The notes under the pieces: model-generated | Databases searched by the model: none | What the model was told of the DNA's origin: nothing | What the model saw: the letters and a program-made list of their open reading frames with translations, nothing else | Program-made: the position numbers and the translations under genes | Origin: Hyphomicrobiales bacterium | GTDB taxonomy: Bacteria; Pseudomonadota; Alphaproteobacteria; Rhizobiales; Beijerinckiaceae | Length of the DNA: 64,000 nt | NCBI GenBank assembly: GCA_930633495.1 | Contig: CAKNFJ010000001.1 | Location: forward strand, 1,674,001-1,738,000 | Direction of reading: 5' to 3' | Shown: one piece after another, positions 10,929 through 53,082 of the stretch | Layout of the letters: each line of letters opens with the position of its first letter | How positions within the stretch are numbered: position 1 is the stretch's first letter

Positions 10929-11711
10929 ATGAACGCTCCACTCTCCGGCCCCCAGCGGCAGGCGCGTCTGCTCGATCAGGTGCGCACGCATCATTTCGTC
11001 GATGTGCAGGCGTTGACGGAGCTGTTCGGCGTGTCCGTCGCCACCATCCGCCGCGATCTCTCCGAGCTCGAGACGCAAGGGTTGCTGCGGCGAACCCATG
11101 GCGGCGCGCTCTTCGTCGACCAGGTCACGCGCGACCAGGCCAACCGCGACCGGACCGTCGCGAATGTCGAAGCGAAGCGCCGCATCGCTCAGGCTGCTGC
11201 GGATCTCGTGGTGGACGGCGATACCGTGATCATCGATGCGGGCACGACCTCGCTGGAAGTCGCCCGTCAACTCGGCACGCGCAGCGGGTTGACGATCATC
11301 ACCAACAGCCTCGACATCAGCCACGAGCTGGCCAACAACGCCACCGGCGACAACCGGCTCTTCGTCATCGGCGGCGAATTCCATGACGTGAACCATTCGT
11401 TTTCCGGGCCGCTGGCCGCCGAGGCCGTGCGACGGTTCAACGCCGACAAGGCCATTCTCAGCGTCTCTTCGGTCGACCTCAACCGCGGCACGATCGGCTT
11501 GCCGAGCCCGCAATTCGCCTGCGTGCAGCAGGCGATGATCGCGGTCGCCAAAGCCGCCATCGTCGTCGCCGACGCCTCGAAATTCGGCCGCGCCTCTCTC
11601 TCGGTCGTCGCGCGCTTCGATGCGCTCGACTGCATCGTGACGGATGACGATGCGCCCGCAGAAGCTGACCAGAAGACCGTCGCGCACGGTTCCCTGCTCG
11701 TTCGCGCCTGA
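10929..11711 (+). CDS. DeoR/GlpR-family transcriptional regulator of the import cassette
   Basis: A 260-residue protein. The N-terminal DeoR helix-turn-helix reads VDVQALTELFGVSVATIRRD and LSELETQGLLRRTHGGALF. The C-terminal sugar-phosphate sensor domain shows GDTVIIDAGTTSLEVARQL and ADKAILSVSSVDLNRGTIGL. This family binds phosphorylated metabolites (glycerol 3-phosphate for GlpR, sugar phosphates for others) and usually represses. Ten bases separate it from the ABC ATPase gene, so it is the first gene of the cassette A operon. Its effector is plausibly the phosphorylated product of that pathway. GATC dyads upstream (10796-10823, 10902-10919) are likely operators. Confidence 0.87.
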   Translation: MNAPLSGPQRQARLLDQVRTHHFVDVQALTELFGVSVATIRRDLSELETQGLLRRTHGGALFVDQVTRDQANRDRTVANVEAKRRIAQAAADLVVDGDTVIIDAGTTSLEVARQLGTRSGLTIITNSLDISHELANNATGDNRLFVIGGEFHDVNHSFSGPLAAEAVRRFNADKAILSVSSVDLNRGTIGLPSPQFACVQQAMIAVAKAAIVVADASKFGRASLSVVARFDALDCIVTDDDAPAEADQKTVAHGSLLVRA

Positions 11712-11721: not shown

Positions 11722-12759
11722 ATGTCGGCAATCGAAGTCCGCGGCCTGACGAAAGCCTGGGGCAGCACCCATGCCGTGGACGGGATCGATTTTCGCGTCG
11801 AGGAAGGCGAGTTCCTCGCCCTGCTCGGCCCTTCCGGCTGCGGCAAGTCAACCACGCTCCGGCTGATCGCCGGCCTCGACGAGCCGACCTCGGGCAGCAT
11901 CGTCATCGGCGGGCGCGACGTGACCGCGCTGCCGCCGGCCCAGCGCCAGCTCTCGATGGTCTTCCAGTCCTACGCGCTGTTTCCGCATCTGAACGTCGCC
12001 GACAACATCGTCTTCGGCCTCTCGGTGCGCGGCGTCTCGAAGGCGGAGCAGCGCGACCGCCTCGCGCGGGTCGTCGACCTGCTCGGATTGTCTCAGCTTC
12101 TAGAGCGCAAGCCCTCGCAGCTCTCCGGCGGCCAGCAGCAGCGCGTCGCGCTCGGACGGGCGCTGATCGCCCAGACCCAGGTCTGCCTGATGGACGAGCC
12201 GCTCTCCAATCTCGACGCCAAGCTGCGCCACGAGATGCGAACCGAGATCCGCGCGCTGCAGCGCCGGCTCGGCATCACCATGGTCTTCGTCACCCACGAT
12301 CAGACCGAGGCGATGAGCATGGCCGATCGCGTCATCCTGATGCGCGCAGGCAGGATCGAGCAGAACGGCACCCCCGCCTCCCTCTACGAACGGCCCGCCT
12401 CGACCTTCGTCGGCGGCTTCATCGGCACGCCGCCGATGAACGTCATCGACATGCCCGCCACGCTGCGCACGCCCGGCGGCCCCACCCGAAAGCTCGGCAT
12501 CCGGCCCGAGGACATCGCCTTCTCCGAAAGCGGCCTGCAAGTCACGGTCGAAGGCGCCGAATATTTCGGTGCCGACTCCGTCACAGCTTGCCGTCTCGAC
12601 GACCAGCTTCTCTTCGTCCGCACGGCCGGCCAGCCGCTGAAGGCGCCGGGTTCCGTCGCCCATCTCGCCTGGCCGAAGAAGGCCGAGAGCATCTTCGACA
12701 GCGAGACCGGCCTGCGGATCGACGAGGCCGGCCGCCCGGCCGGTGCCCATCACGCATAA
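11722..12759 (+). CDS. Ugp-type ABC transporter ATPase (cassette A)
   Basis: A 345-residue carbohydrate-type importer ATPase of the UgpC/MalK group. Walker A GPSGCGKST is at residues 36-44, the signature LSGGQQQ at 134-140 and Walker B VCLMDEP at 154-160, with a C-terminal TOBE-like regulatory domain (RKLGIRPEDIAFSESGLQ). The ATG at 11722 follows GAGGAGGG; an in-frame extension of 26 codons into the regulator gene is rejected. It energises uptake by the two permeases at 14120 and 14992. Its length and motif positions are identical to the paralogue at 48095. Confidence 0.9.
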   Translation: MSAIEVRGLTKAWGSTHAVDGIDFRVEEGEFLALLGPSGCGKSTTLRLIAGLDEPTSGSIVIGGRDVTALPPAQRQLSMVFQSYALFPHLNVADNIVFGLSVRGVSKAEQRDRLARVVDLLGLSQLLERKPSQLSGGQQQRVALGRALIAQTQVCLMDEPLSNLDAKLRHEMRTEIRALQRRLGITMVFVTHDQTEAMSMADRVILMRAGRIEQNGTPASLYERPASTFVGGFIGTPPMNVIDMPATLRTPGGPTRKLGIRPEDIAFSESGLQVTVEGAEYFGADSVTACRLDDQLLFVRTAGQPLKAPGSVAHLAWPKKAESIFDSETGLRIDEAGRPAGAHHA

Positions 12760-12798: not shown

Positions 12799-14100
12799 AT
12801 GCAGAGTTCACGCAGGACGTTCAACAAAGGCGCGCTCGCAGCACTCGGCGCGCTCGCGATGCCGGCGATCGCACGGGCCGCCGACACCAAGATCAGCTTC
12901 TACTACCCCGTCCAGGTCGGCGGCCCGCTGACCAAGGTCATCGACGGCTATGTCACCAAGTTCAAGGCGGCCAATCCCGGCATCGAGGTCGAGGCCGTCT
13001 ATGCCGGCAACTACAACGACACGACGACCAAGGCGCTGACCGCGGCCAAGAGCGGAGCGCCGCCGACCGTGGCGGTGCTGCTCGCGACCGACATCTATAC
13101 CTTCCTCGACGAGGGCGTGATCGAGCCCTTCGACAGCTTCATCAAAACCGATGACGACCGCAAATGGGTCGCCGGCTTCATGCCGGCCTTCCTGAAGAGC
13201 GCGCAGGTCGACGGCAAGCTCTGGGCTGCCCCATTCCAGCGGTCCACCGCGGTCCTCTACTGGAACAAGAAGGCCTTCGCCGAGAGCGGGCTCGATCCGG
13301 AAAAATTCCCGACGACCTGGGACGAGATGGTCCGCTACGGCAAGGCGGTGCTGCGCAAGGACGCATCGGGCAAGGTCACGCGCTGGGGCGTCGGCATTCC
13401 CGGCAATGTCGGCTCGGCCCAGTGGCTGTTCGGCGCGCTGGCCGCCCAGAACGGCGCCTCGCTGTTCAAGGAGGACGGCACCCAGACCTTCCTGAGCGAT
13501 CCCAAGGTCGTGGAAGCCCTGAAGTTCTGGGTCGATCTCAGCAAGGTCGACGGCATCCACCCGCCCGGCATCCAGGAATGGGGCACGACCCCGGCCGACT
13601 TCCTGGAAGGCCGGATCGCGATGATCTGGACCACCACCGGCAACCTCACCAACATCAAGCGCAACGCCGGCTTCGACTTCGGCGTCGCGCCCTATCCGGG
13701 CAAGGTCGCGCCGGCCTCTGTGCTCGGCGGCGGCAATTTCTACATCTTCTCCAAGGCTTCGGCGGCGGAGAAGGAGGCGGCGTTCCGCTTCGTGAAGTTC
13801 ATGACCTCGGACGAGATCCTGGCCGATTGGAGCGTCCAGACCGGCTATGTCGCGCCGCGCGACGGCGCCTGGGAGACCCCGACGCTGAAGAAGTACGTCG
13901 AGGAGATGCCGGCCGCGACCGTCGCCCGCAAGCAGATCGCCAACTCGGTGCCGGAGTTCTCGACCTATGAGAACGCCCGCACCACCAAGGTGCTCAACGA
14001 TGCGCTCGGTGCCGCACTGACCGGGGCGAAGCCGCCGCAGGCGGCGCTCACCGAGGCGCAGGCCGAGATCGACCGCATCCTCAAGCCTTATCGCAAGTGA
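12799..14100 (+). CDS. Tat-exported extracellular solute-binding protein, UgpB-like (cassette A)
   Basis: A 433-residue family 1 solute-binding protein. The N-terminus carries a Tat-like signal (SRRTFNKGALAALGALAMPA) that ends at ARA. ISFYYPVQVGGPLTKVIDGY and the later APFQRSTAVLYWNKKAF resemble UgpB, whose ligands are sn-glycerol 3-phosphate and glycerophosphodiesters. A strong GGGAGG ribosome site precedes the ATG, as expected for a protein needed in excess. It is clearly paralogous to the protein at 49189 (shared AVYAG/IYAG, PPFQRST-type and YWNK segments). The ligand is not known. Phosphodiesters are favoured by the downstream hydrolases. Confidence 0.87.
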   Translation: MQSSRRTFNKGALAALGALAMPAIARAADTKISFYYPVQVGGPLTKVIDGYVTKFKAANPGIEVEAVYAGNYNDTTTKALTAAKSGAPPTVAVLLATDIYTFLDEGVIEPFDSFIKTDDDRKWVAGFMPAFLKSAQVDGKLWAAPFQRSTAVLYWNKKAFAESGLDPEKFPTTWDEMVRYGKAVLRKDASGKVTRWGVGIPGNVGSAQWLFGALAAQNGASLFKEDGTQTFLSDPKVVEALKFWVDLSKVDGIHPPGIQEWGTTPADFLEGRIAMIWTTTGNLTNIKRNAGFDFGVAPYPGKVAPASVLGGGNFYIFSKASAAEKEAAFRFVKFMTSDEILADWSVQTGYVAPRDGAWETPTLKKYVEEMPAATVARKQIANSVPEFSTYENARTTKVLNDALGAALTGAKPPQAALTEAQAEIDRILKPYRK

Positions 14101-14119: not shown

Positions 14120-14995
14120 ATGAAGGTCTCGCGCAACGCCCTCTACGGAAGCCTGCTGCTGCTGCCGGCGACGGTGCTGCTCTGGGCCTTCACCTATCAG
14201 CCGATCCTGACCACCATCATCAACAGCTTCTATTCGACCCCGCGCGGCCGGCGGCCCTCCCGCTTCATCGGCTTCGAGCATTACGCCACGATGGCCGCCG
14301 ACCCGGTCTTCTGGAAGGCGTTGACCAACAACCTGATCTACGCGGCCGCCACGATCCCGCTCTCGATCGTGTTGGCCCTCGCCATGGCGCTGCTGGTGCA
14401 GGGCAGCCTGCGCGGCACCACCCTGACGCGCATGGCCTTCTTCACCCCGACCGTTCTGCCGATGGTCGCGGTCGCCAATATCTGGCTGTTCTTCTACGCC
14501 CCCGACTACGGGCTGATCGACCAGGTCCTCTCCCTGTTCGGCCTCGGCGGCAACAACTGGCTCGGCAATCGCGATACGGCGCTGTGGGCGCTGATCGTGA
14601 TCACGGTCTGGAAGGAGGCGGGGTTCTTCATGATCTTCTACCTCGCCGGGCTGCAGCAGATCTCGCCGACCCTGCTCGAAGCCGCCGACCTCGAAGGGGC
14701 GAGCTACTGGCAGCGCCTGCGTCGGGTGGTGATCCCGCTGCTGATGCCGACGACCCTGTTCATCGCGATCAATGCCGTGATCGGCGCCTTCCGCCTGGTC
14801 GATCATGTCGTGGCGATGACCAAGGGCGGCCCCGACAATGCGACCATGCTGCTGCTCTACTACCTCTACCAGGTCGGTTTCAGCTTCTGGGACACCAATT
14901 ACGCCGCCGCCATCACGGTCGTTCTGCTCGCCTTCCTGGCAGCGATCGCTCTGTTCCAGTTCGGCTATGCCGACAAGCGGGTGCACTATCGATGA
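14120..14995 (+). CDS. ABC permease, UgpA-like (cassette A)
   Basis: A 291-residue inner-membrane permease of the MalF/UgpA type with about six membrane segments. GSLLLLPATVLLWAFTY is the first, and the cytoplasmic coupling loop EAADLEGASYWQRLRRVVIP holds the EAA motif that docks on the ATPase. FYSTPRGRRPSRFIGFEHY after the first segment is typical of UgpA relatives. It lies 19 bases after the binding-protein gene and overlaps the next permease by four bases. It forms the heterodimeric channel with that protein. Confidence 0.88.
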   Translation: MKVSRNALYGSLLLLPATVLLWAFTYQPILTTIINSFYSTPRGRRPSRFIGFEHYATMAADPVFWKALTNNLIYAAATIPLSIVLALAMALLVQGSLRGTTLTRMAFFTPTVLPMVAVANIWLFFYAPDYGLIDQVLSLFGLGGNNWLGNRDTALWALIVITVWKEAGFFMIFYLAGLQQISPTLLEAADLEGASYWQRLRRVVIPLLMPTTLFIAINAVIGAFRLVDHVVAMTKGGPDNATMLLLYYLYQVGFSFWDTNYAAAITVVLLAFLAAIALFQFGYADKRVHYR

Positions 14996-15816
14996 GCGGC
15001 TTTTCTCGCATCCGGCCGGGCTTCGCGCTGGCCAACGTCGCGGCCTGGCTGCTCGCCTTCATCTGGGTGGCGCCACTGCTCTACGCCTTCTGGACGGCGT
15101 TCCACCCGCCGGCCTATGCCGCGCGCTTCGACCTCGCCGCGCCCTGGACGCTGGAGAACTTCGAGCGCGTCTGGCAGGCGGCGCCCTTCGCGCGCTATTT
15201 CCTCAACACCTTCCTGCTGGTGACGCTGATCCTGGTCAGCCAGCTCGTGATCTGCACGCTGGCGGCCTATGCCTTCGTCTGTTTTCCCTTCCGTGGCTCG
15301 AACCTGCTGTTCCTGCTCGTGCTGATCCAGCTGATGATCATGCCCGAGGCGCTGCTGGTCGAGAACTACCGCACCCTCGGCAACATCGGCCTGCTCAACA
15401 CGCTGCTCGGCATGGGCATGCCTTATCTCGCTTCCGCCTTCGGCATCTTCCTGATCCGGCAGACATTCAAGGGCGTGCCGAAGGAGCTGGAGGAGGCGGC
15501 GCGCCTGGAGGGCGCCAATCCGCTCCAGATCCTCTGGCGCGTCTTCATCCCCGTCGCGCGGCCGACCCTGATCGCCTTCGGACTGGTGACGGTCAGCTAC
15601 CATTGGAACAACTTTCTCTGGCCGCTGGTGGTCTCGAACTCTGTCGAGGTCCGGCCGATCACCGTCGGCCTGCAGGTCTTCGCCACGGTCGAACAGGGCG
15701 TCGACTGGAGCCTGGTGACGGCCGCGACGCTGCTTTCGGTCGCACCGCTGCTCTGCGCCTTCCTGATCTTCCAGCGCCAGTTCGTGCAAAGCTTCATGCG
15801 AGCCGGCATCCGGTGA
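14992..15816 (+). CDS. ABC permease, UgpE-like (cassette A)
   Basis: A 274-residue second permease, MalG/UgpE type. The ATG at 14992 overlaps the stop of the previous permease (ATGA); the longer open frame upstream is out of context. Six membrane segments are visible, starting with FALANVAAWLLAFIWVAPLL, and the EAA loop is EEAARLEGANPLQILWRVFI. The conserved tail VQSFMRAGIR ends the protein. Ten bases separate it from the phosphoesterase gene, keeping the hydrolase in the transport operon. Confidence 0.88.
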   Translation: MSGFSRIRPGFALANVAAWLLAFIWVAPLLYAFWTAFHPPAYAARFDLAAPWTLENFERVWQAAPFARYFLNTFLLVTLILVSQLVICTLAAYAFVCFPFRGSNLLFLLVLIQLMIMPEALLVENYRTLGNIGLLNTLLGMGMPYLASAFGIFLIRQTFKGVPKELEEAARLEGANPLQILWRVFIPVARPTLIAFGLVTVSYHWNNFLWPLVVSNSVEVRPITVGLQVFATVEQGVDWSLVTAATLLSVAPLLCAFLIFQRQFVQSFMRAGIR

Positions 15817-15826: not shown

Positions 15827-16612
15827 ATGACCATGCTGATCGCCCATATCTCGGATTTCCACGTCTTCGCGGACCGGAAGGAAACCCATCTCGTCCGCGA
15901 CGATGCGGAAGCTGCAGCCCGGAAGGTCGTGGCCGATCTCGCCGCCTTCCGGCCGGCGCTCGACGGCATCGTCCTGACGGGTGACCTGACCGATGGCGGC
16001 TCGGAAACCGATTACGCCCTGCTGAAGGACATCCTGGCCGCGCTGACCTGCCCGGTCTTCGTCCTGCCCGGCAATCACGACAAGCGCGTCACCCTGCGGG
16101 CCGCCTTCGGCGACAATCTGCCTTTCGCGCCTGACGGCTTCCTTCATTACGAGGCACGGCTGGATCATATCCGCATCCTCGCGCTCGACACGCTGGTGGA
16201 GGGGCGCGGCGAAGGCCGGCTCTGCGCCGAGCGGCAGGCCTGGGCGGCCGCGCGCCTCGCCGAACCGCATGACGGCCCGACCATCGTCGCGATGCATCAC
16301 CCGCCCTTCCCGACCGGCATCGTCGCGCTCGATGTCGCGACGCTGGTCGAGGGTGCCGAGGAGCTTGGCCGCATGGTCCGCGATGCGCCCTCCGACATCC
16401 GCATCCTCTGCGGCCATGTCCACCGCCCGGTGCAGGCCAATTGGAACGGCCGCTTCGCCGCGATCGGCGGCAGCCCCGCCTTCCAGATCGGCCTCGACCT
16501 CAGCGGCCAGGCCGAGGAGCCCGGGCTGGTGCGCGAGCCCTATTGCTATTTCATCCATCGCTTCGACGACCGCGGCGATGTCTCCATGCACACACGCTAC
16601 GTCCAGATCTGA
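15827..16612 (+). CDS. Calcineurin-type metallophosphoesterase, probable phosphodiesterase (cassette A)
   Basis: A 261-residue cytoplasmic enzyme with all metal-binding motifs of the class III phosphodiesterase (CpdA/GpdQ) group: DFH near residues 10-12, GDLTDGG from 52, GNHD at 82-85, HH at 157-158 and GHVH at 196-199. Members hydrolyse cyclic nucleotides or glycerophosphodiesters using two metal ions. No signal peptide is seen. Position between the importer and an IMPase-family gene argues that it cleaves the imported phosphodiester inside the cell, rather than turning over cAMP. In cassette B the same slot holds an unrelated fold (52240-53082), which supports that reading. Confidence 0.85.
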   Translation: MTMLIAHISDFHVFADRKETHLVRDDAEAAARKVVADLAAFRPALDGIVLTGDLTDGGSETDYALLKDILAALTCPVFVLPGNHDKRVTLRAAFGDNLPFAPDGFLHYEARLDHIRILALDTLVEGRGEGRLCAERQAWAAARLAEPHDGPTIVAMHHPPFPTGIVALDVATLVEGAEELGRMVRDAPSDIRILCGHVHRPVQANWNGRFAAIGGSPAFQIGLDLSGQAEEPGLVREPYCYFIHRFDDRGDVSMHTRYVQI

Positions 16613-16616
16613 TGTC

Positions 16617-17414
16617 ATGAGCCTACCTTCCGCCGCCGACCAGGACGCCGTCGAAACGCTCTCGCGCGAGGCCGGCGCTCTCGCGCTCGACCATTTCGCG
16701 CGCGTCGCCAACCTACCCGTTACGATGAAGGGACATCTCGACCTCGTGACGGAGGCCGACCAGGCAGTCGAACGCTTCATCGCCGCGGGCTTGCGCCGGC
16801 TCTTCCCGGAGGACGGCGTGCTCGGCGAGGAAGGCAGCGGTCAGGACAGCCGCAGCGGGCGCCTCTGGGTGGTAGACCCAATCGACGGAACCGCGAATTT
16901 CGTGCGCGGCAACGATCAATGGGCGGTCTCGATCGGCCTGTTCGAGGCCGGTCGCCCGCGCTTCGGTATCATCCACCCCCCGGTTCGCGGCCAGCTCTTC
17001 CGTGGCGGTCCCGGGCAACCGGCAACGCTGAACGGGCAGCCCCTGCCCCCCGCCAGACCGCTCGATCCGTCGCGGGCCCTGATCGGCATCAGCCTCCACC
17101 CGGCGACCCCCGTCGAAACCCGCCTCGCCACGATCCGCCACATCATCGGCAAGCTGCGGCTCGACTTCCGCACCTGCGGCGCCTCGACGATCACGCTCAT
17201 GGACATGGCAACGGCCCAGCTCGATGGCTATGTCTGCGACGGCATCGCGAGCTGGGACGTGATGGCGGCGCTGCCGATCCTGGAAAGCCTCAGCTATGCC
17301 TGCTCGCTCGACTGGTCGCGCACGGCGCTGACCGACAAGCTAGGTTTCGTCTGCGGGACAGAAGAATTCCTGCTTGCGATGGAAGAAGTCTGCCCCGTTC
17401 CGCCCAACGCCTAA
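16617..17414 (+). CDS. Inositol-monophosphatase-family phosphatase (cassette A)
   Basis: A 265-residue Mg-dependent phosphomonoesterase of the IMPase/SuhB/HisN superfamily. Metal ligands are in LVTEADQAVE, GEEGSGQ and the hallmark WVVDPIDGTANF; ASWDVMAALPI near the C-terminus is the second metal-site motif. The ATG follows the phosphodiesterase stop by 4 bases. It probably removes phosphate from the monoester released by that enzyme. HisN or SuhB housekeeping roles are possible for the family but unlikely at this position. A similar but diverged paralogue ends cassette B at 53079-53903. Confidence 0.85.
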   Translation: MSLPSAADQDAVETLSREAGALALDHFARVANLPVTMKGHLDLVTEADQAVERFIAAGLRRLFPEDGVLGEEGSGQDSRSGRLWVVDPIDGTANFVRGNDQWAVSIGLFEAGRPRFGIIHPPVRGQLFRGGPGQPATLNGQPLPPARPLDPSRALIGISLHPATPVETRLATIRHIIGKLRLDFRTCGASTITLMDMATAQLDGYVCDGIASWDVMAALPILESLSYACSLDWSRTALTDKLGFVCGTEEFLLAMEEVCPVPPNA

Positions 17415-17572: not shown

Positions 17573-19036
17573 TCAGCCCAGCCCGCCGATATGGAACGAC
17601 TTGATCGAGAGATATTCCTCGATGCCGTATTTCGAGCCCTCTCGGCCGATGCCGGATTGCTTGACGCCCCCGAAGGGCGCGGCCTCGATCGAAACCGAGC
17701 CCGTATTCAAGCCCACCATGCCGAATTCGAGCTGCTCCGCGACCCGCCAGGCACGGTTGAGATCGCTGGTGAAATAGTAGGAGGCGAGGCCGTAGGGCGT
17801 GGCATTCGCGATCTCGACCGCCTCGCGCTCGTCCCTGAAACGGAAGAGCGGGGCGACCGGCCCGAAGGTCTCCTCGCTCGCCAGCGCCATCCCGATCGTG
17901 GCTCCGCCGAGCACGGTCGGCGCGGCGAAGAGTTCGCCCTGCGCCGCCTTCGCGCTGGCCAGCAGCATCGCGCCCTTCGCCCGGGCGTCCTCGATATGGC
18001 GCTCGACCTTATCGACCGCCGCCTTGTTGATGAGCGGGCCGATGGTGACGCCCTCCTCCAGACCGTTGCCGACCACGAGCTTCGAGACGGCCGCCGAGAG
18101 CTTGTCGGCGAAGCGATCGTAGATGCCGTCCTGCACGAGCACGCGGTTGGCGCAGACGCAGGTCTGGCCGCTGTTGCGGAACTTGCTGGCCATCAGCCCC
18201 GCGACGGCGAGGTCGATATCGGCATCGTCGAAGACCAGAAAAGGTGCGTTGCCGCCGAGCTCGAAGCTGACCCGCTTCATCGTGTCGGCGCATTGCTGCA
18301 TCAGGAGCTGGCCGACGCGGGTCGAGCCGGTGAAGGAGAGCTTGCGCACGCTCATGCTGGAGGTCAGTTCGCCCCCGATCTCCTGCGGCAGGCCGGTCAG
18401 CACGCTGACGATGCCCTTCGGGATACCGGCCCGCTCGGCCAGGACCGCGAGCGCCAAGGCCGAATAAGGCGTCAGCTCCGAGGGCTTGATGACGATTGGG
18501 CAGCCGGCGGCAAGCGCCGGGCCGGCCTTGCGGGTGATCATCGCCGCCGGGAAGTTCCAGGGCGTGATCGCGGCGGCGACGCCCACCGGCTCCTTCAGCA
18601 CGATGATGCGGCGGTCGCTGGTGGGGGCGGGAATCGTGTCGCCGTAGATGCGCCGGGATTCTTCCGCGAACCATTTCAGGAAACCGGCGGCGTAGCGCAC
18701 CTCGCCGCGCGCCTCGGCGAGCGGCTTGCCCTGCTCGACCGTCATGATGACCGCGAGATCCTCGAGATGGTCGAGCATGAGATCGTGCCAGATCTCGATC
18801 AGCCGGCCGCGCTCCGCGCTCGGGAGGGCGCGCCAGCCGGAGAAGGCCTTCTCGGCCGCTGCGATGGCGGCTTGCGTCTCGCTGCGGCCCAGCGCCGGCA
18901 CCGTGCCGACCATCTCCCGCGTCGCCGGATTGACGACCGTCAGCGTCGCTCCGTTCGCGGCGCCGATCCATTCGCCGCCGACATAGGCCTGCTCGCGGAA
19001 CAGGGACGGATCCTTCAGGCGTGCGGCGATGCTCAT
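17573..19036 (-). CDS. gabD: NAD(P)-dependent succinate-semialdehyde dehydrogenase
   Basis: A 487-residue aldehyde dehydrogenase. The start ATG at 19036 has GGAGG 6 bases upstream; a 94-codon in-frame extension has no ALDH character. PWNFPAAMITRKAGPALAAG is the cofactor and oxyanion region, VSFELGGNAPFLVFDDAD contains the general-base Glu, and FRNSGQTCVCANRVLVQDG holds the catalytic Cys within the GQTCVCANR segment typical of GabD. It oxidises succinic semialdehyde to succinate, the last step of 4-aminobutyrate breakdown. No gabT is nearby. Related semialdehydes (for example glutarate semialdehyde) cannot be excluded. Confidence 0.85.
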   Translation of the reverse strand: MSIAARLKDPSLFREQAYVGGEWIGAANGATLTVVNPATREMVGTVPALGRSETQAAIAAAEKAFSGWRALPSAERGRLIEIWHDLMLDHLEDLAVIMTVEQGKPLAEARGEVRYAAGFLKWFAEESRRIYGDTIPAPTSDRRIIVLKEPVGVAAAITPWNFPAAMITRKAGPALAAGCPIVIKPSELTPYSALALAVLAERAGIPKGIVSVLTGLPQEIGGELTSSMSVRKLSFTGSTRVGQLLMQQCADTMKRVSFELGGNAPFLVFDDADIDLAVAGLMASKFRNSGQTCVCANRVLVQDGIYDRFADKLSAAVSKLVVGNGLEEGVTIGPLINKAAVDKVERHIEDARAKGAMLLASAKAAQGELFAAPTVLGGATIGMALASEETFGPVAPLFRFRDEREAVEIANATPYGLASYYFTSDLNRAWRVAEQLEFGMVGLNTGSVSIEAAPFGGVKQSGIGREGSKYGIEEYLSIKSFHIGGLG

Positions 19037-19658
19037 CGTATCCTCCAGGGCGGTTAGCCCATGATCATGCGGATCGGCAGCAGGGAATACCGAGAGAACG
19101 CGGCCTGCGCCACTTCCTACCGAGTTTGCGGTGATTCCGGCAGCTTCTGCTTCGCCGCCGACGACTGCGCCTGCCGGGTTCGGGAGGAGAATGGCGCGAG
19201 CCTGCTTCGGAACCTCAAGCAACGAGGCAGGCAGAGGCGGAGACGATCGGATCAGAGCAGCCTCGACCGTCCTGCCCTCCGGCAACCGGCCCGAACCCGT
19301 CGACGCGCCGCGCCGCAAGGCCGTCCGAGCTTGGTTTACTGGTAAAATTTTAACAAGAGGCTACCCTGCCAGCCGCGCCCCGCTCCACCGACCTGTATCA
19401 GGGTAACGTAAGGAAACGGCCGAGCAAGTGGGGCTGTTGTCGGCATGGATTGCGACCTGCTCCAGGGCTGGTGTTCCCGCGACGCCTGCGAGGCCGAACG
19501 GCTACCGGGCGCGCTCGAGAACATTCCGCCCGTCGGCGATCCTCCGACGGAGCGACATCGCACGACATCCGCAAGCAGTTTCGCAAGTCACCTTACGAAT
19601 TAACGCCACCACTTCACTTCGTCGAAGCCTGCCCCGGCGCAGGCCCAAGGGGGATTCG
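19037..19658. other. Long divergent intergenic region without a supported gene
   Basis: Between gabD and the globin-coupled receptor, 622 bases hold only open frames of skewed composition that I do not accept. The one AT-rich patch (19331-19356) contains a dyad TTTAC-TG-GTAAA (19336-19347), which could be part of a promoter or operator. AAGGGGGA near 19648-19655 is the ribosome site of the receptor gene. Nothing else recognisable was seen. Confidence 0.45.
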
Positions 19659-21185
19659 ATGTCGAACTCGGACGATCTCACACAACGCCTCGCCTTCATG
19701 AAACTCGGAGCGGACGAGCGCCAGCGCATCCGCAGCGTCGAGAAGGTCATCGTCGATGCGCTTCCCGGCGCGCTCGATGCCTTTTATGCCCAGGTGAAAG
19801 CCTATCCCGAGACGCGCGCCTTCTTCGGCAACCAGGCGCAGATCGACGGGGCCAAGAACCGGCAGGTCTCGCATTGGGACCGGATCGCCAAGGGCCAGTT
19901 CGACCAGGACTATGTCGCCGCCGTCACGCGCGTCGGCGAGGTCCATGCGCGGATCGGGCTGGAGCCGCGCTGGTATATCGGCGGCTATGCGCTGCTGCTC
20001 TCGCAACTGATCGGCAAGGTGCTGGAAGCGCGCTGGCCGAAGAGCACCTTCGGCTCCAGGCTGCCAGGCGCGGAGGACCGATCGGCGGAAATCGGCGCGA
20101 TCGTCAAGGCCGCGCTCCTCGACATGGACTATGCCATCTCCGTCTATCTCGAAGCGTCCGAGGCCGCGCGGCTGAAGGCCGAGGCCGAGGCGAAAGCCAT
20201 CGAGCAGGCCAAGGCGGCCGAGCGCGAGAAGGCCGTGGCCCTCGTCAGCGAAGGCATGGCGGCACTGGCGAGCGGCGATCTGAGCTTCCGCATGACCCAG
20301 GATATCCCGGCGGAATACGCCCAGATCCGCGATCACTTCAACGACGCCATGGGGCGGCTCGGCGAGATGGTGACCACGATCAAGGCAAGCTCCGCGGCCA
20401 TCGCGGGCTCATCCCATGAGATCAACGACGGCGCTGCCAACCTTTCCGCGCGAACCGAAGAGCAGGCCTCCGCGCTCGAGGAGACCGCCGCGACGACCGA
20501 GCAGCTCGCAGCCTCGGTCAAGACCTCCGCCCAATCGTCGCGGGAATCTGCGGCGCTCGCGGACGAGGCGACGGGCATCGCACGCACCGGCGGCGAGATC
20601 GTCCGCGACGTCGTCGAGGCCATGACGCGGATCGAGGATGCCTCGAAGAAGATTTCGGAGATCACCAGCGTCATCGACGGCATCGCCTTCCAGACCAATC
20701 TCCTGGCCCTCAATGCTGCCGTCGAGGCGGCCCGCGCTGGCGATGCCGGCCGCGGCTTCGCCGTGGTTGCGGCCGAAGTCCGCGCGCTCGCGCAGCGTTC
20801 GGCTGCCGCAGCCAAGGATATCACCGGCCTGATCGGCTCCTCCGATGCCGAGGTGACGGAGGGCGTCCGGCTGGTCCGGCTGGCCGGCGAGACCCTGGAG
20901 AAGATCGTCGATGCGTCCGTCCGCGTCTCCGGCACCGTCAAGGAGATCGCGTCGGCAACCGGCGAGCAGGCCAACGGCATCGAGGAGATGAGCCAGACCG
21001 TCAGCCACATGGACGAGATCACGCAGCGCAACGCCGCCCTGGCCGAGCAAAGCGCGGCGTCGGCGCGCACGCTGATGACGCAGATCGAACGCTTGAGCCA
21101 GCTGGTCTCGGCTTTCCGGACCGGGAGCGAGAATCACGCCGCCAAGCCGGCGAACATCGTGACCCTGCATCGCCAAGCGAGCTGA
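19659..21185 (+). CDS. Soluble globin-coupled chemoreceptor (HemAT-like)
   Basis: A 508-residue protein. The ATG at 19659 is preceded by AAGGGGGA; 77 upstream in-frame codons are rejected. Residues 1-165 are a protoglobin sensor domain: the proximal heme histidine is probably H96 in [11 protein letters not shown], followed by [12 protein letters not shown] helical linker rich in Glu, Ala and Lys (residues 165-200) leads to a chemoreceptor signalling domain whose tip is [20 protein letters not shown], then [20 protein letters not shown]. No membrane segment is present, so it is cytoplasmic and likely senses O2 or another diatomic gas for aerotaxis. No che genes adjoin it. Confidence 0.9.
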
Positions 21186-21253: not shown

Positions 21254-21333
21254 CGCCATCATGCGATCCGTTGCTGACTTTATCCGTCAGGGGCTTTCAC
21301 GGTTGCACCATCCTTCGGGAAGGCTTCCTGCTA

Positions 21334-21431
21334 GAGCAGTTCCACAATTCTCCGAATCGCGGAACTGCTCCGAGCTCCTGTTCTGCCGCATTTTCTTCAC
21401 GCGAACCGGAGGCCACTTCGCTCGAAAATGC
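21334..21431. repeat. Two-part palindromic intergenic repeat
   Basis: GAGCAGTTCC (21334-21343) and GGAACTGCTC (21361-21370) form the first dyad. GCATTTTC (21388-21395) and GAAAATGC (21424-21431) form the second, around TTCACGCGAACCGGAGG and CACTTCGCTC. The second block matches a dispersed repeat I know from Bradyrhizobium- and Bosea-like genomes. It ends 27 bases before the next start codon, so it lies within that gene's leader. Confidence 0.65.
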
Positions 21432-21458
21432 TCTAAGCAGCAATGCGAGGAGAGCCCC

Positions 21459-22724
21459 ATGTCCCAGGAAGCCCTGTTCGAACGCCTCTGGAACGGCACC
21501 TCACCGATGGAGGAATGGACCGAGGCGGTCTCACACGGCGCCATCACGCCCGTCGCGGACAACATCATCACGGTCCACACCACCTATTTCTGCGGCAGCG
21601 TCACGGCGATCCGCACCACTGACGGGCTCGTGCTGATCGACACGGCCAAGCCGGATACCGCGCAGCGGACGTTCGAGGTGATCCGCTCCTGGGACGACAG
21701 CCCCGTCCACACGGTGATCTACACGCACGGCCATATCGACCACACCAGCGGCATCGCCGTCATCGACGGGGAAGCCGAAGCCCGGGGCCGGCCCCTGCCC
21801 CGCATCGTCGGGCACCGCAACGTCGCGCGGCGGCTGCAGCGCTATGAGGACACGCGAGGCTTCAACAGCATCGCGCAGGGGCAACAATTCAATCTGCCGG
21901 GCTATGTCTATCCGACCGGCCAGCGCCGGCCGGACACGATCTACGACGACACGCTTTCGCTGATGATCGGCGGCGAGCGGATCGAACTCTTCCATGGCCG
22001 CGGCGAAACCGACGACGCGACCATCGTCTGGCTGCCGGAGCGGCGGGTTCTCGCCAGCGGCGACTTCGTCATCTGGGTGTTCCCGAATTCCGGCAATCCC
22101 CGCAAGGTCCAGCGCTACACGGCCGAATGGGCCAATGCGCTGCGCCGGATCGAGAGCCTCAAGCCGGACATCCTGATTCCGGGGCACGGCCCCGTCGTCT
22201 TCGGCGAGCAGCGGGTCTCGCAGATGGTGCGGGACGGCGCCGAAGCGCTGGAACATCTGGTGCGGGAGACGCTCGCGCTCATGAATCGCGGCGCGACGCT
22301 CGACGACATCCTGAGCAGGGTCAAGGTTCCGGCCGCGTATACGTCGAAGCCCTATCTGCTGCCCAAATACGACGACCCGGAATTCCTGGTTCGCGGAATC
22401 TATCACCTCTATGGCGGCTGGTTCGACGGGAACGCCGCGCATCTCAAGCCGGCGCGGGCGGGTGATCTTGCGCGCGAGCTGGCAGAGCTCGCGGGCGGAG
22501 CCGGAAAGCTCGCAGGGCGAGCCGCCACCCTGAGCGAGGCCGGTCAATCCCGGCTCGCCGTCGAACTGGCCGAACTGGCCGGCGCGGCGGCTCCCGATGA
22601 CCGGGAGATTCAGCGCATGCGCGCTGCCGTGCTCGACAAGGCCGTCGAGGGAGAAAGATCGCTGATGGGCAAGGCCTTCCTGGCCGTGTTCGCACGCGAC
22701 GCAACACAAAGATCGCAATCTTGA
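21459..22724 (+). CDS. Metallo-beta-lactamase-fold hydrolase, alkylsulfatase-like
   Basis: A 421-residue protein. The ATG at 21459 follows GCGAGGAGAG; upstream in-frame codons lie in a repeat. The zinc motif THGHIDHTSG (HxHxDH) and the later FHGRGETDDATIVWLPERR and IPGHGPVVFG define the MBL fold. YGGWFDGNAAHLKPA is the hallmark of the alkylsulfatase dimerisation domain of SdsA1/BDS1 enzymes, which cleave alkyl sulfate esters. Those enzymes are over 600 residues with a signal peptide and a C-terminal SCP2-like domain; here both are missing, so this is a short intracellular variant. Substrate uncertain. The locus also carries sulfite dehydrogenase genes about 16 kb away, but a functional link is speculative. 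Confidence 0.78.
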   Translation: MSQEALFERLWNGTSPMEEWTEAVSHGAITPVADNIITVHTTYFCGSVTAIRTTDGLVLIDTAKPDTAQRTFEVIRSWDDSPVHTVIYTHGHIDHTSGIAVIDGEAEARGRPLPRIVGHRNVARRLQRYEDTRGFNSIAQGQQFNLPGYVYPTGQRRPDTIYDDTLSLMIGGERIELFHGRGETDDATIVWLPERRVLASGDFVIWVFPNSGNPRKVQRYTAEWANALRRIESLKPDILIPGHGPVVFGEQRVSQMVRDGAEALEHLVRETLALMNRGATLDDILSRVKVPAAYTSKPYLLPKYDDPEFLVRGIYHLYGGWFDGNAAHLKPARAGDLARELAELAGGAGKLAGRAATLSEAGQSRLAVELAELAGAAAPDDREIQRMRAAVLDKAVEGERSLMGKAFLAVFARDATQRSQS

Positions 22725-48094: not shown

Positions 48095-49132
48095 ATGGTT
48101 TCGGTCGAACTCCGGACGGTATCCAAGAACTGGGGCGGAGCCGCCGCCGTCGACGCCATCAGCTTCACCGTCGAAGGCGGCAAGCTCGTCGCCCTGCTCG
48201 GACCTTCGGGCTGCGGAAAATCGACGACGCTGCGCCTGATCGCCGGCCTCGAAGACACCAGCGGCGGCACGATCACCATCGGCGGGCGCGACGTCACCCG
48301 TGCGTCGCCCTCGCAGCGCGGCATTTCGATGGTGTTCCAGAACTATGCGCTGTTTCCGCATCTGAGCGTCGGCGAGAACATCCTGTTCGGCCTGAAGGTC
48401 CGGAAGGTTTCGCGCGCCGAGCGCGACGAGCGCCTTGCCCGCGCAGCCTCGATCCTGGGGCTCTCGGCCCTGCTCGACCGCAAGCCGTCGCAGCTCTCGG
48501 GCGGCCAGCAGCAGCGTGTCGCGCTCGGCCGCGCCATCGTCGCGGAAGCGCCGGTCTGCCTGATGGACGAGCCGCTTTCCAACCTCGACGCCCAATTGCG
48601 CGTCGAGATGCGTCGGGAAATCCGCGAGCTGCAGCAGCGCCTCGGCATGACCATGGTCTATGTCACGCACGATCAGGTCGAGGCCATGACGATGGCCGAT
48701 CAGGTGGTGCTGATGCGCAACGGTCGGATCGAGCAGGATGCGCCGCCCGACGTGCTGTACGAGACTCCCGCCACGATCTTCACCGCCCGCTTCGTCGGCA
48801 CACCACCGATGAACGTGCTGCCGCTTGCGGTGGTGCAGGCACAGGGCGGCAGGCTCGCTCCGCCGCCCGGGCTCGATCCCGCGGGGCTTGCCGTCGGCAT
48901 CCGCCCGGAGATGGTCGAGATCGCGGATAGCGGCGTCGCCGCCGATGTCGTCGCGGTCGAATATCTCGGCGCCGACACGCTGCTCGATACCCGCGTCGGC
49001 AGCCATCCCTTCATCGTCAGGCGCCCGGGCAAGGTCCGTGCCGCAGCCGGCGAACGGATCTACATCACGTTGTCACAATCGGCGCTGCACTGGTTCGACC
49101 TGGCGTCGGAACGAAAGGTGGTTCGGGATTAG
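48095..49132 (+). CDS. Ugp-type ABC transporter ATPase (cassette B)
   Basis: A 345-residue ATPase with Walker A GPSGCGKST, signature LSGGQQQRVALGRA and Walker B VCLMDEP at the same residue positions as the paralogue at 11722. The tail (AVGIRPEMVEIADSGVAADV) is the TOBE-like domain. The ATG at 48095 is chosen because upstream codons lack ABC character. No regulator gene and none of the GATC dyads seen before cassette A precede it, so control must differ. It serves the permeases at 50482 and 51357. Confidence 0.88.
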   Translation: MVSVELRTVSKNWGGAAAVDAISFTVEGGKLVALLGPSGCGKSTTLRLIAGLEDTSGGTITIGGRDVTRASPSQRGISMVFQNYALFPHLSVGENILFGLKVRKVSRAERDERLARAASILGLSALLDRKPSQLSGGQQQRVALGRAIVAEAPVCLMDEPLSNLDAQLRVEMRREIRELQQRLGMTMVYVTHDQVEAMTMADQVVLMRNGRIEQDAPPDVLYETPATIFTARFVGTPPMNVLPLAVVQAQGGRLAPPPGLDPAGLAVGIRPEMVEIADSGVAADVVAVEYLGADTLLDTRVGSHPFIVRRPGKVRAAAGERIYITLSQSALHWFDLASERKVVRD

Positions 49133-49188: not shown

Positions 49189-50478
49189 ATGGACAGGCGT
49201 GAATTCTTAGGCGGCTCAGCCGCCCTTGCAGGTGCGATCGCGATGCCCGGCATCGCGCGCGCGCAGACGGCGGAGATCTCGTTCTTCTATCCGGTCGCCG
49301 TCGGCGGGCCGATCACCAAGCTGATCGACACCTTCGCGGCCGATTTCGAGAAAGAGAACCCGTCGATCCGCATCAAGCCGATCTATGCGGGCACCTATCA
49401 GGAAACCATCGTCAAGGCTCTGACCGCGCATAAGAGCGGCACGCCGCCGGTGCTGTCGGTGCTGCTGTCGACGGACATGTTCACGCTGATCGACGAGGAG
49501 GCGGTCGTTCCGTTCGACGGTTTCGTCAAGAACGAGGACGACAAGAAGTGGCTCGGCAGCTTCTTCCCGGGCTTCATGGAAAACAGCCAGACCGGCGGCC
49601 AGACCTGGGGCATTCCCTTCCAGCGCTCGACCGTCGTGCTCTACTGGAACAAGGAACTGTTCAAGGAGGCCGGGCTCGATCCCGAGACCCCGCCGAAGAG
49701 CTGGGCCGAGCAGGTCGCCTTCGCCCAGAAGCTGACCAAGCGCGATGCCGCCGGCAACGTGACGCAGTGGGGCATCCAGATTCCGTCCTCGGGCTTCCCC
49801 TACTGGCTGTTCCAGGGGCTTTCGACGCAGGCCGGCGTGATCCTTGCCAACGCGGAAGGCAACAAGACCGACTTCGCCGCGCCCGGCGTCGTCGAGGCGC
49901 TGCAGTACTGGGTCGATCTGGCGCAGAAGCACAAGGTTCACCCGCCCGGCATCGTCGAATGGGGCACCACGCCACGCGACTTCTTCGAGAAGAAGGTCGC
50001 GATGATGTGGACCACCACCGGCAACCTCACCAATGTCCGCGCCAATGCGAAGTTTCCGTTCGGGGTCGGGCTTCTGCCCGCCGGGCGCCGCTTCGGCAGC
50101 CCCACCGGCGGCGGCAACTTCTACCTGTCGAAGAAGGCGAAGCCGGCCGAGCAGGAAGCGGCCTTCAAGTTCGTGCGCTGGATCACCACGCCCGAGCGTG
50201 CCGCGCAATGGAGCATCGACACCGGCTATGTCGCGGTGACGCCCGCCTCTTACGACACCCCGGCGATGAAGAAATACGTCGCCGACTTCCCGCAGGCGCT
50301 CGTGGCCCGCGACCAGCTTCCGCATGCGGTGGCCGAGCTCTCGACCCATGAGAACCAGCGCGTCACCAAGGCGCTCAACGATGCTCTCCAGGCCGCGCTG
50401 ACCGGCAGCAAGGCACCCCAGCCGGCGCTGACCGAGGCCCAGGCCGAAGCGGAACGCATCCTCAAGCCCTATCGCTGA
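49189..50478 (+). CDS. Tat-exported solute-binding protein, UgpB-like (cassette B)
   Basis: A 429-residue binding protein. A Tat signal (MDRREFLGGSAALAGAIAMP) precedes the mature ISFFYPVAVGGPITKLIDTF. FPFQRSTVVLYWNKELF and HPPGIVEWGTTPRDFFEKKV parallel the cassette A protein almost phrase by phrase, showing common descent with clear divergence. GAGGGAGAGAGG precedes the ATG. It captures the ligand in the periplasm. Ligand identity may differ from cassette A but should be chemically related. Confidence 0.87.
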   Translation: MDRREFLGGSAALAGAIAMPGIARAQTAEISFFYPVAVGGPITKLIDTFAADFEKENPSIRIKPIYAGTYQETIVKALTAHKSGTPPVLSVLLSTDMFTLIDEEAVVPFDGFVKNEDDKKWLGSFFPGFMENSQTGGQTWGIPFQRSTVVLYWNKELFKEAGLDPETPPKSWAEQVAFAQKLTKRDAAGNVTQWGIQIPSSGFPYWLFQGLSTQAGVILANAEGNKTDFAAPGVVEALQYWVDLAQKHKVHPPGIVEWGTTPRDFFEKKVAMMWTTTGNLTNVRANAKFPFGVGLLPAGRRFGSPTGGGNFYLSKKAKPAEQEAAFKFVRWITTPERAAQWSIDTGYVAVTPASYDTPAMKKYVADFPQALVARDQLPHAVAELSTHENQRVTKALNDALQAALTGSKAPQPALTEAQAEAERILKPYR

Positions 50479-50481
50479 ACG

Positions 50482-51360
50482 ATGAACCAGCGCGCGACCG
50501 CAACGATCCATGGCTGGCTGCTCCTGCTGCCGGCCATGGCCTGCCTCGTCCTCTTCACGCATTGGCCTGCGGTCGCGAGCTTCATCGAGAGCTTCTATTC
50601 GACACCGAAGGCGCGCCGTCCGGCGCGCTTCATCGGCTTCGACAACTACCAGCAGCTTCTTGCCGACCCGATCTTCTGGAAAGCGATGAGCAACAACCTC
50701 TGGTTCGCGCTCGGCACGATCCCGAGCTCGATCGCGCTGGCCCTGCTGATGGCCGTCTGGGTCAATGACCGCATCGTCGGGCGGACCTGGGTGCGCATGG
50801 CCTATTTCACGCCGACGATCCTGCCGATGATCGCGGTCGCCAATATCTGGCTGTTCTTCTTCACGCCGCAATACGGGCTGCTCGAACAGATCGTCGCCTT
50901 TTTCGGCGGCCGCCCGACCAACTGGCTCGGCTCGCAGGATACCGCGCTCTACGCGGTCACCATCGTCGCGATCTGGAAGGAAGCCGGCTTCTTCATGATC
51001 TTCTACCTGGCCGCGCTGCAGGCCCTGTCGCCGAGCCTGGGAGAAGCGGCCGCGATCGAGGGGGCCTCGCGCTGGACCTTCTTCTGGCGCATCCAGTTCC
51101 CGCTGCTGATGCCGACCACGCTCTTCGTCCTGATCAACGCGGTCATCAATGCCTTCCGCATGGTCGACCATATCTTCGTGATGACGCGCGGCGGGCCGGA
51201 CAATGCGACGACGCTGCTGCTCTACTACATCTACCAGATCGGCTTCGGCTTCTGGGACACGGCCTATGCCGCGACGCTGACCTGCGTGCTCCTGCTGCTG
51301 CTCGCGTTGGTGGCCTTCGTCCAGTACGGCTGGCTCGAACGCAGGACGCATTATCGATGA
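50482..51360 (+). CDS. ABC permease, UgpA-like (cassette B)
   Basis: A 292-residue MalF/UgpA-type permease, starting 3 bases after the binding-protein stop. The first membrane segment is GWLLLLPAMACLVLFTHWPA, the loop FYSTPKARRPARFIGFDNY corresponds to that of the cassette A protein, and the coupling loop is EAAAIEGASRWTFFWRIQFP. Its stop overlaps the next permease start by four bases. Confidence 0.88.
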   Translation: MNQRATATIHGWLLLLPAMACLVLFTHWPAVASFIESFYSTPKARRPARFIGFDNYQQLLADPIFWKAMSNNLWFALGTIPSSIALALLMAVWVNDRIVGRTWVRMAYFTPTILPMIAVANIWLFFFTPQYGLLEQIVAFFGGRPTNWLGSQDTALYAVTIVAIWKEAGFFMIFYLAALQALSPSLGEAAAIEGASRWTFFWRIQFPLLMPTTLFVLINAVINAFRMVDHIFVMTRGGPDNATTLLLYYIYQIGFGFWDTAYAATLTCVLLLLLALVAFVQYGWLERRTHYR

Positions 51361-52223
51361 GCGCCCCCGCCAAGCCGCAGGCCGCGGCGATCTCCCGCAC
51401 CGACCCCTACGCCCCCAAGGGGCTGTCGCTGACGCTGGAGTCGGTCGGCGCCATCCTGCTCGCGCTGATCTGGGTGCTGCCGCTGGCCTATGCCGTCTGG
51501 GCGGCCATCCACCCGGCCGAATACACCACGCGTTTCGTGCTGAGCGCGCCCCTGACCTTCGAGAACTTCGCCCGCGCCTGGGTCGCGGCGCCGTTTCCGC
51601 GCTATTTCCTCAACACCTTCGTGCTCGTCACGCTGATCCTGTTCTGCCAGCTCGTGCTCGGCACGCTCGCCGCCTATGCCCTCGCCCGCCAGGATTTCTG
51701 GGGGCGCGACATCGCCTTCGCCCTGATCCTGGCCCAGCTCATGATCATGCCGGATGCGTTGATCGTCGAGAACTACCGCACGCTCGCCAAGGTCAACCTG
51801 ATCGATACGATCCCGGCGATCGCACTGCCCTATATCGCCTCCGCCTTCGGCATCTTCCTGCTGCGGCAGACCTTCAAGACGGTGCCGAAGGAGCTCGACG
51901 ACGCCGCCCGCGTCGAGGGCGCAAGCCCGCTGCAGGTGCTGCTCAAGGTCTATGTCCCGCTCGCAAAGCCGACCTATCTCGCCTATGGGCTGGTCTCGGT
52001 CAGCTATCACTGGAACAACTTCCTCTGGCCGCTGCTGGTGACGAACTCGGTCGAGTCGCGGCCGCTGACGGTCGGCCTCCAGGTCTTCTCGTCGACGGAC
52101 CAGGGCATCGACTGGTCGGTGATCTGCGCGGCGACGCTGATGACCTCCGCACCGCTGCTCATCGGCTTCCTGCTGTTCCAGCGCCAGTTCGTGCAGAGTT
52201 TCATGCGCGCCGGCATCAAGTAA
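51357..52223 (+). CDS. ABC permease, UgpE-like (cassette B)
   Basis: A 288-residue MalG/UgpE-type permease. About 20 extra N-terminal residues precede the first membrane segment compared with the cassette A protein. The EAA loop reads DDAARVEGASPLQVLLKVYV, and the tail FVQSFMRAGIK is nearly identical between cassettes. It is followed after 16 bases by the hydrolase gene, so transport and hydrolysis remain linked. Confidence 0.88.
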   Translation: MSAPAKPQAAAISRTDPYAPKGLSLTLESVGAILLALIWVLPLAYAVWAAIHPAEYTTRFVLSAPLTFENFARAWVAAPFPRYFLNTFVLVTLILFCQLVLGTLAAYALARQDFWGRDIAFALILAQLMIMPDALIVENYRTLAKVNLIDTIPAIALPYIASAFGIFLLRQTFKTVPKELDDAARVEGASPLQVLLKVYVPLAKPTYLAYGLVSVSYHWNNFLWPLLVTNSVESRPLTVGLQVFSSTDQGIDWSVICAATLMTSAPLLIGFLLFQRQFVQSFMRAGIK

Positions 52224-52239: not shown

Positions 52240-53082
52240 ATGAAGCTGATCACCTGGAACATCCAATGGGCCCGCGGCGTCGACGAAAAGGTCGATCCGC
52301 GCCGCATCCTCGACCATGCCCGGCAGATGGCGGATTTCGACGTGCTCTGCCTGCAGGAAGTCGCCGCCAACTTCCCCGATCTCGACGGCAACGACCGCAC
52401 CAATCAGTTCGCCCTGTTCAACGAGCTCCTGCCCGGCTTCACGGCCGTCGAGGCGATCGGCGTCGATATTCCCGACGGCGAAGGCGGGCGCAAGCGCTTC
52501 GGCAACCTGATCCTCTCGCGTCTGCCGGTGGCGCAGGCGCTGCGCCATCTCCTGCCTTGGGAGGCGGCGGCGACGCGCAACATGCCGCGCGTGCTGGTCG
52601 AGGCGATGATCGAGACGCCCTTCGGCCCGATCAGGCTGATGACGACCCATCTGGAATATTCCTCGCCGGCGCTCCGCGCGGCCCAGATCGAGGGTATCCG
52701 GCAGGTCCATCGCATGGCCTGCGCGCGGCAGGCAACGCCGCGCCTGCCCGGCCCTCACACCTATGCCCCGACGCCGAACGCGGCGAGCGCGATCCTGACC
52801 GGCGACTTCAACATGCGGCCGGACGATGCCGGGCTGGCACAGTTGCTCGCGCCGTTCGACGGGGACATGCCGCCGCTGGTCGATCTCTGGCCGGTGCTGC
52901 GGGGCGAAGAACCGCATCCGCCCTCCGCCTTCATCTGCGACCAGACCTACGGCCCGCCCGGCTGCCTCGACTATGTGCTGGCGACGCCGGACCTTGCGCA
53001 GCGAGCCCGTTCGATCGTCTACGACATCGAAACGCGCGCCTCAGACCACCAGCCGATCCTGGTCGAGTTCGACCTCAGATGA
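52240..53082 (+). CDS. Endonuclease/exonuclease/phosphatase-fold phosphodiesterase (cassette B)
   Basis: A 280-residue cytoplasmic EEP-superfamily protein. Motifs in order: TWNIQWARG, the metal-binding Glu in VLCLQEVAANF, HLEYSSPALRAAQ, the Asp/Asn pair in ILTGDFNMRPDDAG, and RASDHQPILVEF at the end. The fold includes sphingomyelinases, inositol-polyphosphate phosphatases and nucleases. It occupies the position that the calcineurin-type phosphoesterase holds in cassette A, so the same step is probably done by an unrelated enzyme. DNA repair is less likely in this operon. It overlaps the phosphatase gene by four bases. Confidence 0.83.
   Translation: MKLITWNIQWARGVDEKVDPRRILDHARQMADFDVLCLQEVAANFPDLDGNDRTNQFALFNELLPGFTAVEAIGVDIPDGEGGRKRFGNLILSRLPVAQALRHLLPWEAAATRNMPRVLVEAMIETPFGPIRLMTTHLEYSSPALRAAQIEGIRQVHRMACARQATPRLPGPHTYAPTPNAASAILTGDFNMRPDDAGLAQLLAPFDGDMPPLVDLWPVLRGEEPHPPSAFICDQTYGPPGCLDYVLATPDLAQRARSIVYDIETRASDHQPILVEFDLR

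Follow-up and report, generated by a model that had tools for sequence, protein, structure and literature searches.

The locus considered here raises the question of what a run of importer and hydrolase genes is for, and whether its resemblance to the agrocinopine (acc) genes of Agrobacterium Ti plasmids reflects common descent. It lies in a 64,000-nucleotide stretch of DNA from a Hyphomicrobiales bacterium (contig CAKNFJ010000001.1; hereafter the window), in which genes for a phosphodiesterase (PDE) and an IMPase-family phosphatase (positions 15827-17414) are the last two of a seven-gene operon on the plus strand (10929-17414). Our analysis suggests that this operon probably takes up a sugar phosphodiester, breaks it down in two hydrolytic steps and is controlled by an AccR-like repressor, its activities and substrate being predicted from the sequence. 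A first-pass annotation had proposed uptake and stepwise hydrolysis of a phosphodiester under a phosphosugar-sensing regulator; import, stepwise hydrolysis and a repressor of that kind all fit the evidence, and it is the substrate that we would shift, to a sugar phosphodiester.

A recurrent seven-gene cassette

The DeoR gene heads the operon, ahead of the importer as the first-pass annotation had it, and the genes follow one another at spacings of 10, 39, 19, -4, 10 and 4 bp. All seven proteins exceed the Pfam cut-offs of their families (Table 1); none of the NCBIfam matches shown for them reaches its cut-off (best 25 of 188 in the case of the ATPase), hence no named function comes from those models. 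The PDE (261 aa) scores 61.8 bits against PF00149 (cut-off 21.5), shows no signal sequence by eye and is modelled with a mean pLDDT of 91.7. Among solved sequences it comes closest to a GpdQ-type phosphohydrolase, the best PDB sequence match, and to Rv0805; we take the entries 2dxl, 2zo9 and 3d03 to be GpdQ. When 35 sequences are aligned, that of the window among them, residues D10, H12, D53, N83, H157, H197 and H199 do not vary and, judging by GpdQ, are presumably the metal ligands. The PDE thus falls in the same family as GpdQ and Rv0805 and has the same motif set, but the match amounts to only about 98 bits and, unlike theirs, its gene shares one operon with importer genes and the gene of an AccG-like phosphatase. 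The IMPase (265 aa from the ATG at 16617) scores 161.4 bits against PF00459 (cut-off 27) and 123.3 against the HisN model (cut-off 275), has intact GEE, DPIDGT and WD motifs and finds IMPases as its closest solved sequences. Families and motifs confirm that the PDE and phosphomonoesterase candidates proposed earlier are real genes, in that order.

When named genomes were scanned with the PDE alignment, 110 relatives came up, the best 80 of which were kept and fell into 79 loci; being drawn through the PDE, this sample is silent on how often the IMPase occurs without it. The full order of DeoR, ATPase, solute-binding protein (SBP), two permeases, PDE and IMPase is found in 19 of the 79 loci, all in other alphaproteobacteria and including Microvirga, Alsobacter, Rhizobium, Neorhizobium, relatives of Roseobacter, Boseongicola and one Rhodospirillales metagenome-assembled genome. 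Three further loci (L046, L047, L050) match this order up to their contig ends, one (L052) has the genes rearranged and one (L054) has all except the IMPase; the other 55, with PDE identities of at most 48%, are without it. Two types can be told apart by SBP score, which is about 600-760 bits in the window-like type and about 380-416 bits in the second type. Since the composition is conserved in other genomes, the gene order is more than chance and the operon is a recurrent cassette.

The cassette is also rare. Searching 397 genomes of the order with AccG at E 1e-45 located members of its clade at 12 places in 10 genomes, and searches with the IMPase at the same threshold found the window's genome alone among 385 genomes of the class, and the window's genome and one other (G129) among 299 genomes of the phylum; matches this few indicate that the subfamily is rare. 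No PDE of more than 40% identity occurs in any of 24 same-genus relatives, which suggests that the window's strain acquired the operon. The claim that this composition is undescribed stands as far as the open-licence literature matches listed go, since their titles and abstract openings describe nothing of the kind, but with 19 of 79 loci alike it is a conserved cassette.

Homology with the agrocinopine operon

We compared the operon with three acc-type operons from plasmid records. The SBP of the acc operon L112 matches the solved agrocinopine-binding protein AccA with an E value of 3.4e-302. In BLAST comparisons the window's DeoR protein is 45, 48 and 51% identical to the DeoR proteins in the AccR position of these operons, and its IMPase is 53-54% identical to their IMPases and 56% to P0335, from an Agrobacterium fabrum plasmid. 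The name given at source to P0335 and to P0318 (Sedimentitalea), among 120 listed IMPase relatives, is arabinose phosphate phosphatase, and IMPase matches occur in 436 plasmid records. Between the SBP and AccA, and between the PDE and AccF, no significant BLAST match was found in the three operons. Both parts of the earlier comparison with the Ti plasmid hold up here, the parallel itself, for regulator and IMPase, and the differing transporter and hydrolase fold.

In a tree of 46 IMPases, the cassette IMPases and AccG form a single clade of 31 rows (support 99/99), outside which fall the IMPase of a second operon in the window, described below, and the other IMPases of the same genome, eight of nine having been taken in (L127 was left out). 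The joint clade is supported at 97/99 on a cleaned set of 37 rows; on these trees, AccG and the cassette IMPases share a common clade. AccR groups with the cassette DeoR proteins at 92/93, just under the support mark of the tree program and with a long-branch warning. Residues N155 and S157 are common to AccR and to the window-type and second-type DeoR proteins, while Asp stands there in 23/25 and 20/25 other DeoR proteins, respectively; the two were drawn post hoc from 17 sensor-side positions picked for differing between groups.

The palindrome TGATN8ATCA has only three matches in the window, all upstream of the DeoR gene. This loose pattern precedes 9/12 window-type DeoR genes and 1/3 acc regulators (0/42 other rows). 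A refined pattern, TGAKYGN4CRMTCA, lies upstream of 9/12 window-type cassette DeoR genes and of 3/3 AccR genes, the latter count being partly circular because the pattern was refined after sight of the acc sites; it is found upstream of none of 26 other DeoR genes, and its background is 2 in 697744 bases. Six TGATYGN4CRATCA sites occur in the window's genome, one of them at the operon. By these patterns, the window operon and the acc operons have similar candidate operators.

The acc and window operons thus have in common the order regulator, importer, PDE and IMPase, a homologous regulator and phosphatase (45-56% identity) and a matching palindrome upstream of the regulator. They differ in the importer, which is of the AccA peptide type in acc and CUT1/UgpB-like in the window, in the PDE, AccF being a GDPD whereas that of the window has the calcineurin fold (PF00149), and in location, since the acc operon of Agrobacterium is carried by Ti and opine-catabolic plasmids and the window operon, on a contig (C1) of at least 5.1 Mb, is chromosomal. 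As judged from sequence comparison, the agrocinopine parallel is real homology for the regulator and the phosphatase.

Eight of the 12 AccG-clade places in the order lie in regulator-importer-PDE operons, namely the window, three cassettes with a calcineurin-fold PDE (L166-L168), an acc operon (L183) and three hybrids (L181, L182, L184) that combine AccR, CUT1-type permeases, a GDPD and AccG. The SBP and GDPD of L181 were confirmed by Pfam, and L182, on a contig of 5.35 Mb, is chromosomal. The refined palindrome is present in L181 and L184 and absent in L182 and L183. The acc operon L183 also carries a second, divergent GDPD gene beside AccF.

Proposed pathway

The UgpB-like CUT1 importer would take up a phosphodiester, which the GpdQ-like metallophosphodiesterase would cut in the cytoplasm to an alcohol or sugar and a phosphomonoester, and the AccG-like IMPase would then free phosphate and the second sugar. 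The AccR-like repressor would sit on the palindromes upstream of its own gene until the phosphomonoester intermediate lifts repression. This proposal builds on gene families, catalytic motifs, operon conservation, AccR/AccG kinship, the candidate operator and phosphate-type pocket residues; from these we infer each activity, the order of the steps, the effector and the substrate. Because the first and last proteins are akin to the agrocinopine system, the likeliest substrate class would be a sugar phosphodiester yielding a sugar phosphate, which, as with agrocinopines, may be a pyranose-2-phosphate. Excerpts of the Agrobacterium literature describe agrocinopine use as a plasmid trait that in addition governs transfer of the plasmid (PMC4526662, PMC6341043). 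A sugar phosphodiester is likewise taken up and cleaved as food in xanthosan use by Xanthomonas (XanT-XanP), a system likened to the window operon by description, although the excerpted account has it rely on a TonB-dependent transporter, a 2H phosphoesterase and a ROK regulator (PMC12807533).

Importer specificity and alternative substrates

The importer was annotated at first pass as Ugp-like, and it does belong to the family of the Ugp (UgpBAEC) importers, which includes the glycerophosphocholine (GPC)-binding UgpB of Mycobacterium tuberculosis. UgpB is the closest solved sequence to the SBP, in which the phosphate-binding Tyr/Ser/Ser/Tyr quartet of UgpB is kept as Y72, S149, T279 (Ser to Thr) and Y350. 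The Trp188/Trp191 clamp does not seem to be conserved in full, although one Trp may align and the alignments disagree: these positions are P201/V204 in the Escherichia coli alignment and W196/G199 in the Phaeobacter alignment. Glycerol 3-phosphate as ligand is not implied, because the NCBIfam models UgpB (146.8 bits, cut-off 411), UgpA (118.1, 335) and UgpE (136.8, 297) score far below their cut-offs; with UgpC (388.2, 432) slightly below, we rejected glycerol-3-phosphate uptake as the main function.

This bears on the alternative that the substrate is a deacylated phospholipid head group (glycerophosphoinositol, glycerophosphocholine or glycerophosphoglycerol), from which the PDE would free glycerol 3-phosphate and an alcohol or its phosphate, the IMPase then removing the phosphate. 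The UgpB-related SBP, whose model (mean pLDDT 79.9) fits GPC-bound UgpB best in a comparison that is a second look at the Foldseek ranking, the GpdQ-like sequence of the PDE and the IMPase family of the last gene would all suit it. We nevertheless consider it unlikely, given the low UgpB, UgpA and UgpE scores, the lack of a gene for glycerol 3-phosphate use among the seven, and the grouping of the IMPase with AccG and of the regulator with AccR, whose effectors are pyranose 2-phosphates in the excerpted PMC4526662. Of the two substrates proposed at first pass, kinship with AccR and AccG accordingly favours the sugar phosphodiester over glycerophosphoinositol.

A further alternative has the importer take up small nucleotides or a cyclic nucleotide and the PDE act on 2',3'- or 3',5'-cyclic nucleotides or dinucleotides, and would draw on the weak matches of the PDE to the SpdA and CpdA models and on a UpG-binding protein being the second-best structural family for the SBP model. 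It appears very improbable, as those matches stay under the cut-offs (SpdA 122.8 bits against 400, CpdA 91 against 225), on which ground we rejected the PDE as a cyclic nucleotide PDE, none of the seven genes encodes a nucleotidase, nucleosidase or deaminase, and AccR/AccG kinship indicates sugars.

A second operon and relatives of the importer

A second operon in the window (48095-53903) joins an importer to a hydrolase of different fold and an IMPase, repeating the scheme of the first (Table 1). The SBPs of these two operons are probably the two binding proteins of which the first-pass annotation spoke. Of 249 genomes of the order, 46 have matches to the SBP alignment (E 1e-60), that of the window being one of them, and we read 47 importer contexts (L133-L179). 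An EEP gene is present in five, a calcineurin-fold PDE alone in nine and a calcineurin-fold PDE with an IMPase in five (L166-L170; AccG-like in three, distant in two), and in 28 none of the searched hydrolases lies on the same strand, seven of these having a weak match on the opposite strand. Tests of five other downstream genes identified an isomerase-like TIM barrel at two loci, a PfkB kinase and, next to an EEP gene, a HAD hydrolase; the fifth had no match. Such varied downstream genes indicate that importers of this family take part in several pathways.

It is also highly unlikely that a sugar or sugar-phosphate importer merely shares its transcript with two housekeeping hydrolases, as the 28 contexts and the two tested relatives with an isomerase-like gene might suggest, when the importer-PDE-IMPase order is retained in 19/79 loci, the second operon couples a paralogous importer to another hydrolase fold and an IMPase, and a related IMPase follows a GDPD in acc-like operons.

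Among relatives of the second operon, in L164 (9039-10717) the partner of the EEP hydrolase is a HAD-family hydrolase and not an IMPase, as if the phosphatase fold had been exchanged. An SBP2-type importer with a DeoR gene stands beside a xylose-isomerase-like TIM barrel in L151 and L153 (tested) and, judged by similar sequence starts, in L155 and L156. In L129, L131 and L171-L179, from the same genus and other genomes, a different UgpB-like importer adjoins a calcineurin-fold PDE; no AccG-like IMPase was found beside the importer and PDE at these loci.

Several observations weigh against a sugar phosphodiester pathway built on an AccR/AccG pair. The phosphate quartet is present in 71 of 71 SBPs, including some without hydrolase neighbours, so we rejected it as a marker of diester use and, occurring in relatives without an adjoining PDE, it is no proof of a diester ligand; in the alignment, the importers of hybrids L181 and L184 are without it. 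A trehalose binder, with a Z of 42.5, follows the best fits of the SBP model by small gaps, and two tested SBP2-type operons carry the isomerase-like protein and one the PfkB kinase instead. The refined palindrome lies upstream of none of 13 second-type cassette DeoR genes. The AccG clade does not take in the IMPases of cassette relatives L169 and L170, and nesting of AccG inside the cassettes, hinted at by the 46-row tree, is unsupported (approximately unbiased test, p = 0.194, AccG as sister not rejected). Four of the 12 AccG-clade places, at 47-50% identity, lie elsewhere than in such operons: L187 has an ABC operon resembling PhnT/PotA and, close by, a SorC-type regulator, L185 and L186 resemble it by the same script, and L188 has an ATPase 7 kb away. 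Finally, according to an excerpted review, diesters of glucose-2-phosphate are seldom met with in nature (PMC7356202).

Other features of the locus

Scans for sigma-70 promoters and terminators at the ends of the operon gave no match. Coordinates, including those of the downstream neighbours, are collected in Table 1.

Table 1. Features of the two importer operons and of the neighbouring region (window positions)
Feature	Position	Strand	Basis or remark
Three palindromic candidate operators TGATN8ATCA	10808-10823, 10881-10896, 10903-10918	.	Pattern matches and repeat search
DeoR-family repressor, AccR-like (P0001)	10929..11711	+	PF00455/PF08220; AccR identity; tree
CUT1/UgpC-like ABC ATPase	11722..12759	+	ABC_tran/TOBE_2
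UgpB-like SBP (P0003)	12799..14100	+	SBP_bac_8/SBP_bac_1 (PF13416/PF01547); signal sequence judged by eye
UgpA-like permease	14120..14995	+	BPD_transp_1
UgpE-like permease	14992..15816	+	BPD_transp_1; overlaps preceding permease gene by 4 nt
Calcineurin-fold PDE, GpdQ/Rv0805-like (P0006)	15827..16612	+	Metallophos PF00149
IMPase-family phosphatase, AccG subfamily (P0007, with two extra residues before the ATG)	16617..17414	+	Inositol_P PF00459
Aldehyde dehydrogenase	17573..19318	-	Convergent with the 3' end of the operon
Protoglobin-coupled methyl-accepting chemotaxis protein	19428..21185		
Metallo-beta-lactamase-fold protein with alkyl sulfatase dimerisation domain	21261..22724		
Second operon, ABC ATPase	48095..49132	+	56% identical to first
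Second operon, UgpB-like SBP (P0368)	49189..50478	+	54% identical to first
Second operon, permease	50482..51360	+	60% identical to that of first operon
Second operon, permease	51357..52223	+	62% identical to that of first operon
Second operon, EEP-fold hydrolase (P0369)	52240..53082	+	PF03372; no BLAST match to first PDE
Second operon, IMPase-family protein	53079..53903	+	ATGA overlap with EEP gene; 36% identical to first over 125 aa

Wider significance

A broader reading, which we put forward tentatively and hold to be somewhat less likely than its opposite, is that free-living alphaproteobacteria carry mix-and-match sugar-phosphodiester cassettes on their chromosomes, in which a fixed AccR/AccG pair would be combined with interchangeable importers (UgpB-like, other CUT1 or peptide-type) and phosphodiesterases (calcineurin-fold or GDPD), the acc operon of crown galls being one recruited version. 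If this is true, sugar phosphodiesters of the agrocinopine kind serve as nutrients in the environment and are not crown-gall oddities alone. The relationship of the regulator and the last enzyme to AccR and AccG is a hint that crown galls are not the only place where such compounds are used as food. The regulator-phosphatase pair and its candidate operator in Rhizobium, Microvirga, Alsobacter and Rhodobacterales relatives would set the agrocinopine system in a wider, non-disease context, and the cassette would indicate a little-known environmental pool of sugar phosphodiesters, together with a short list of proteins for finding them.
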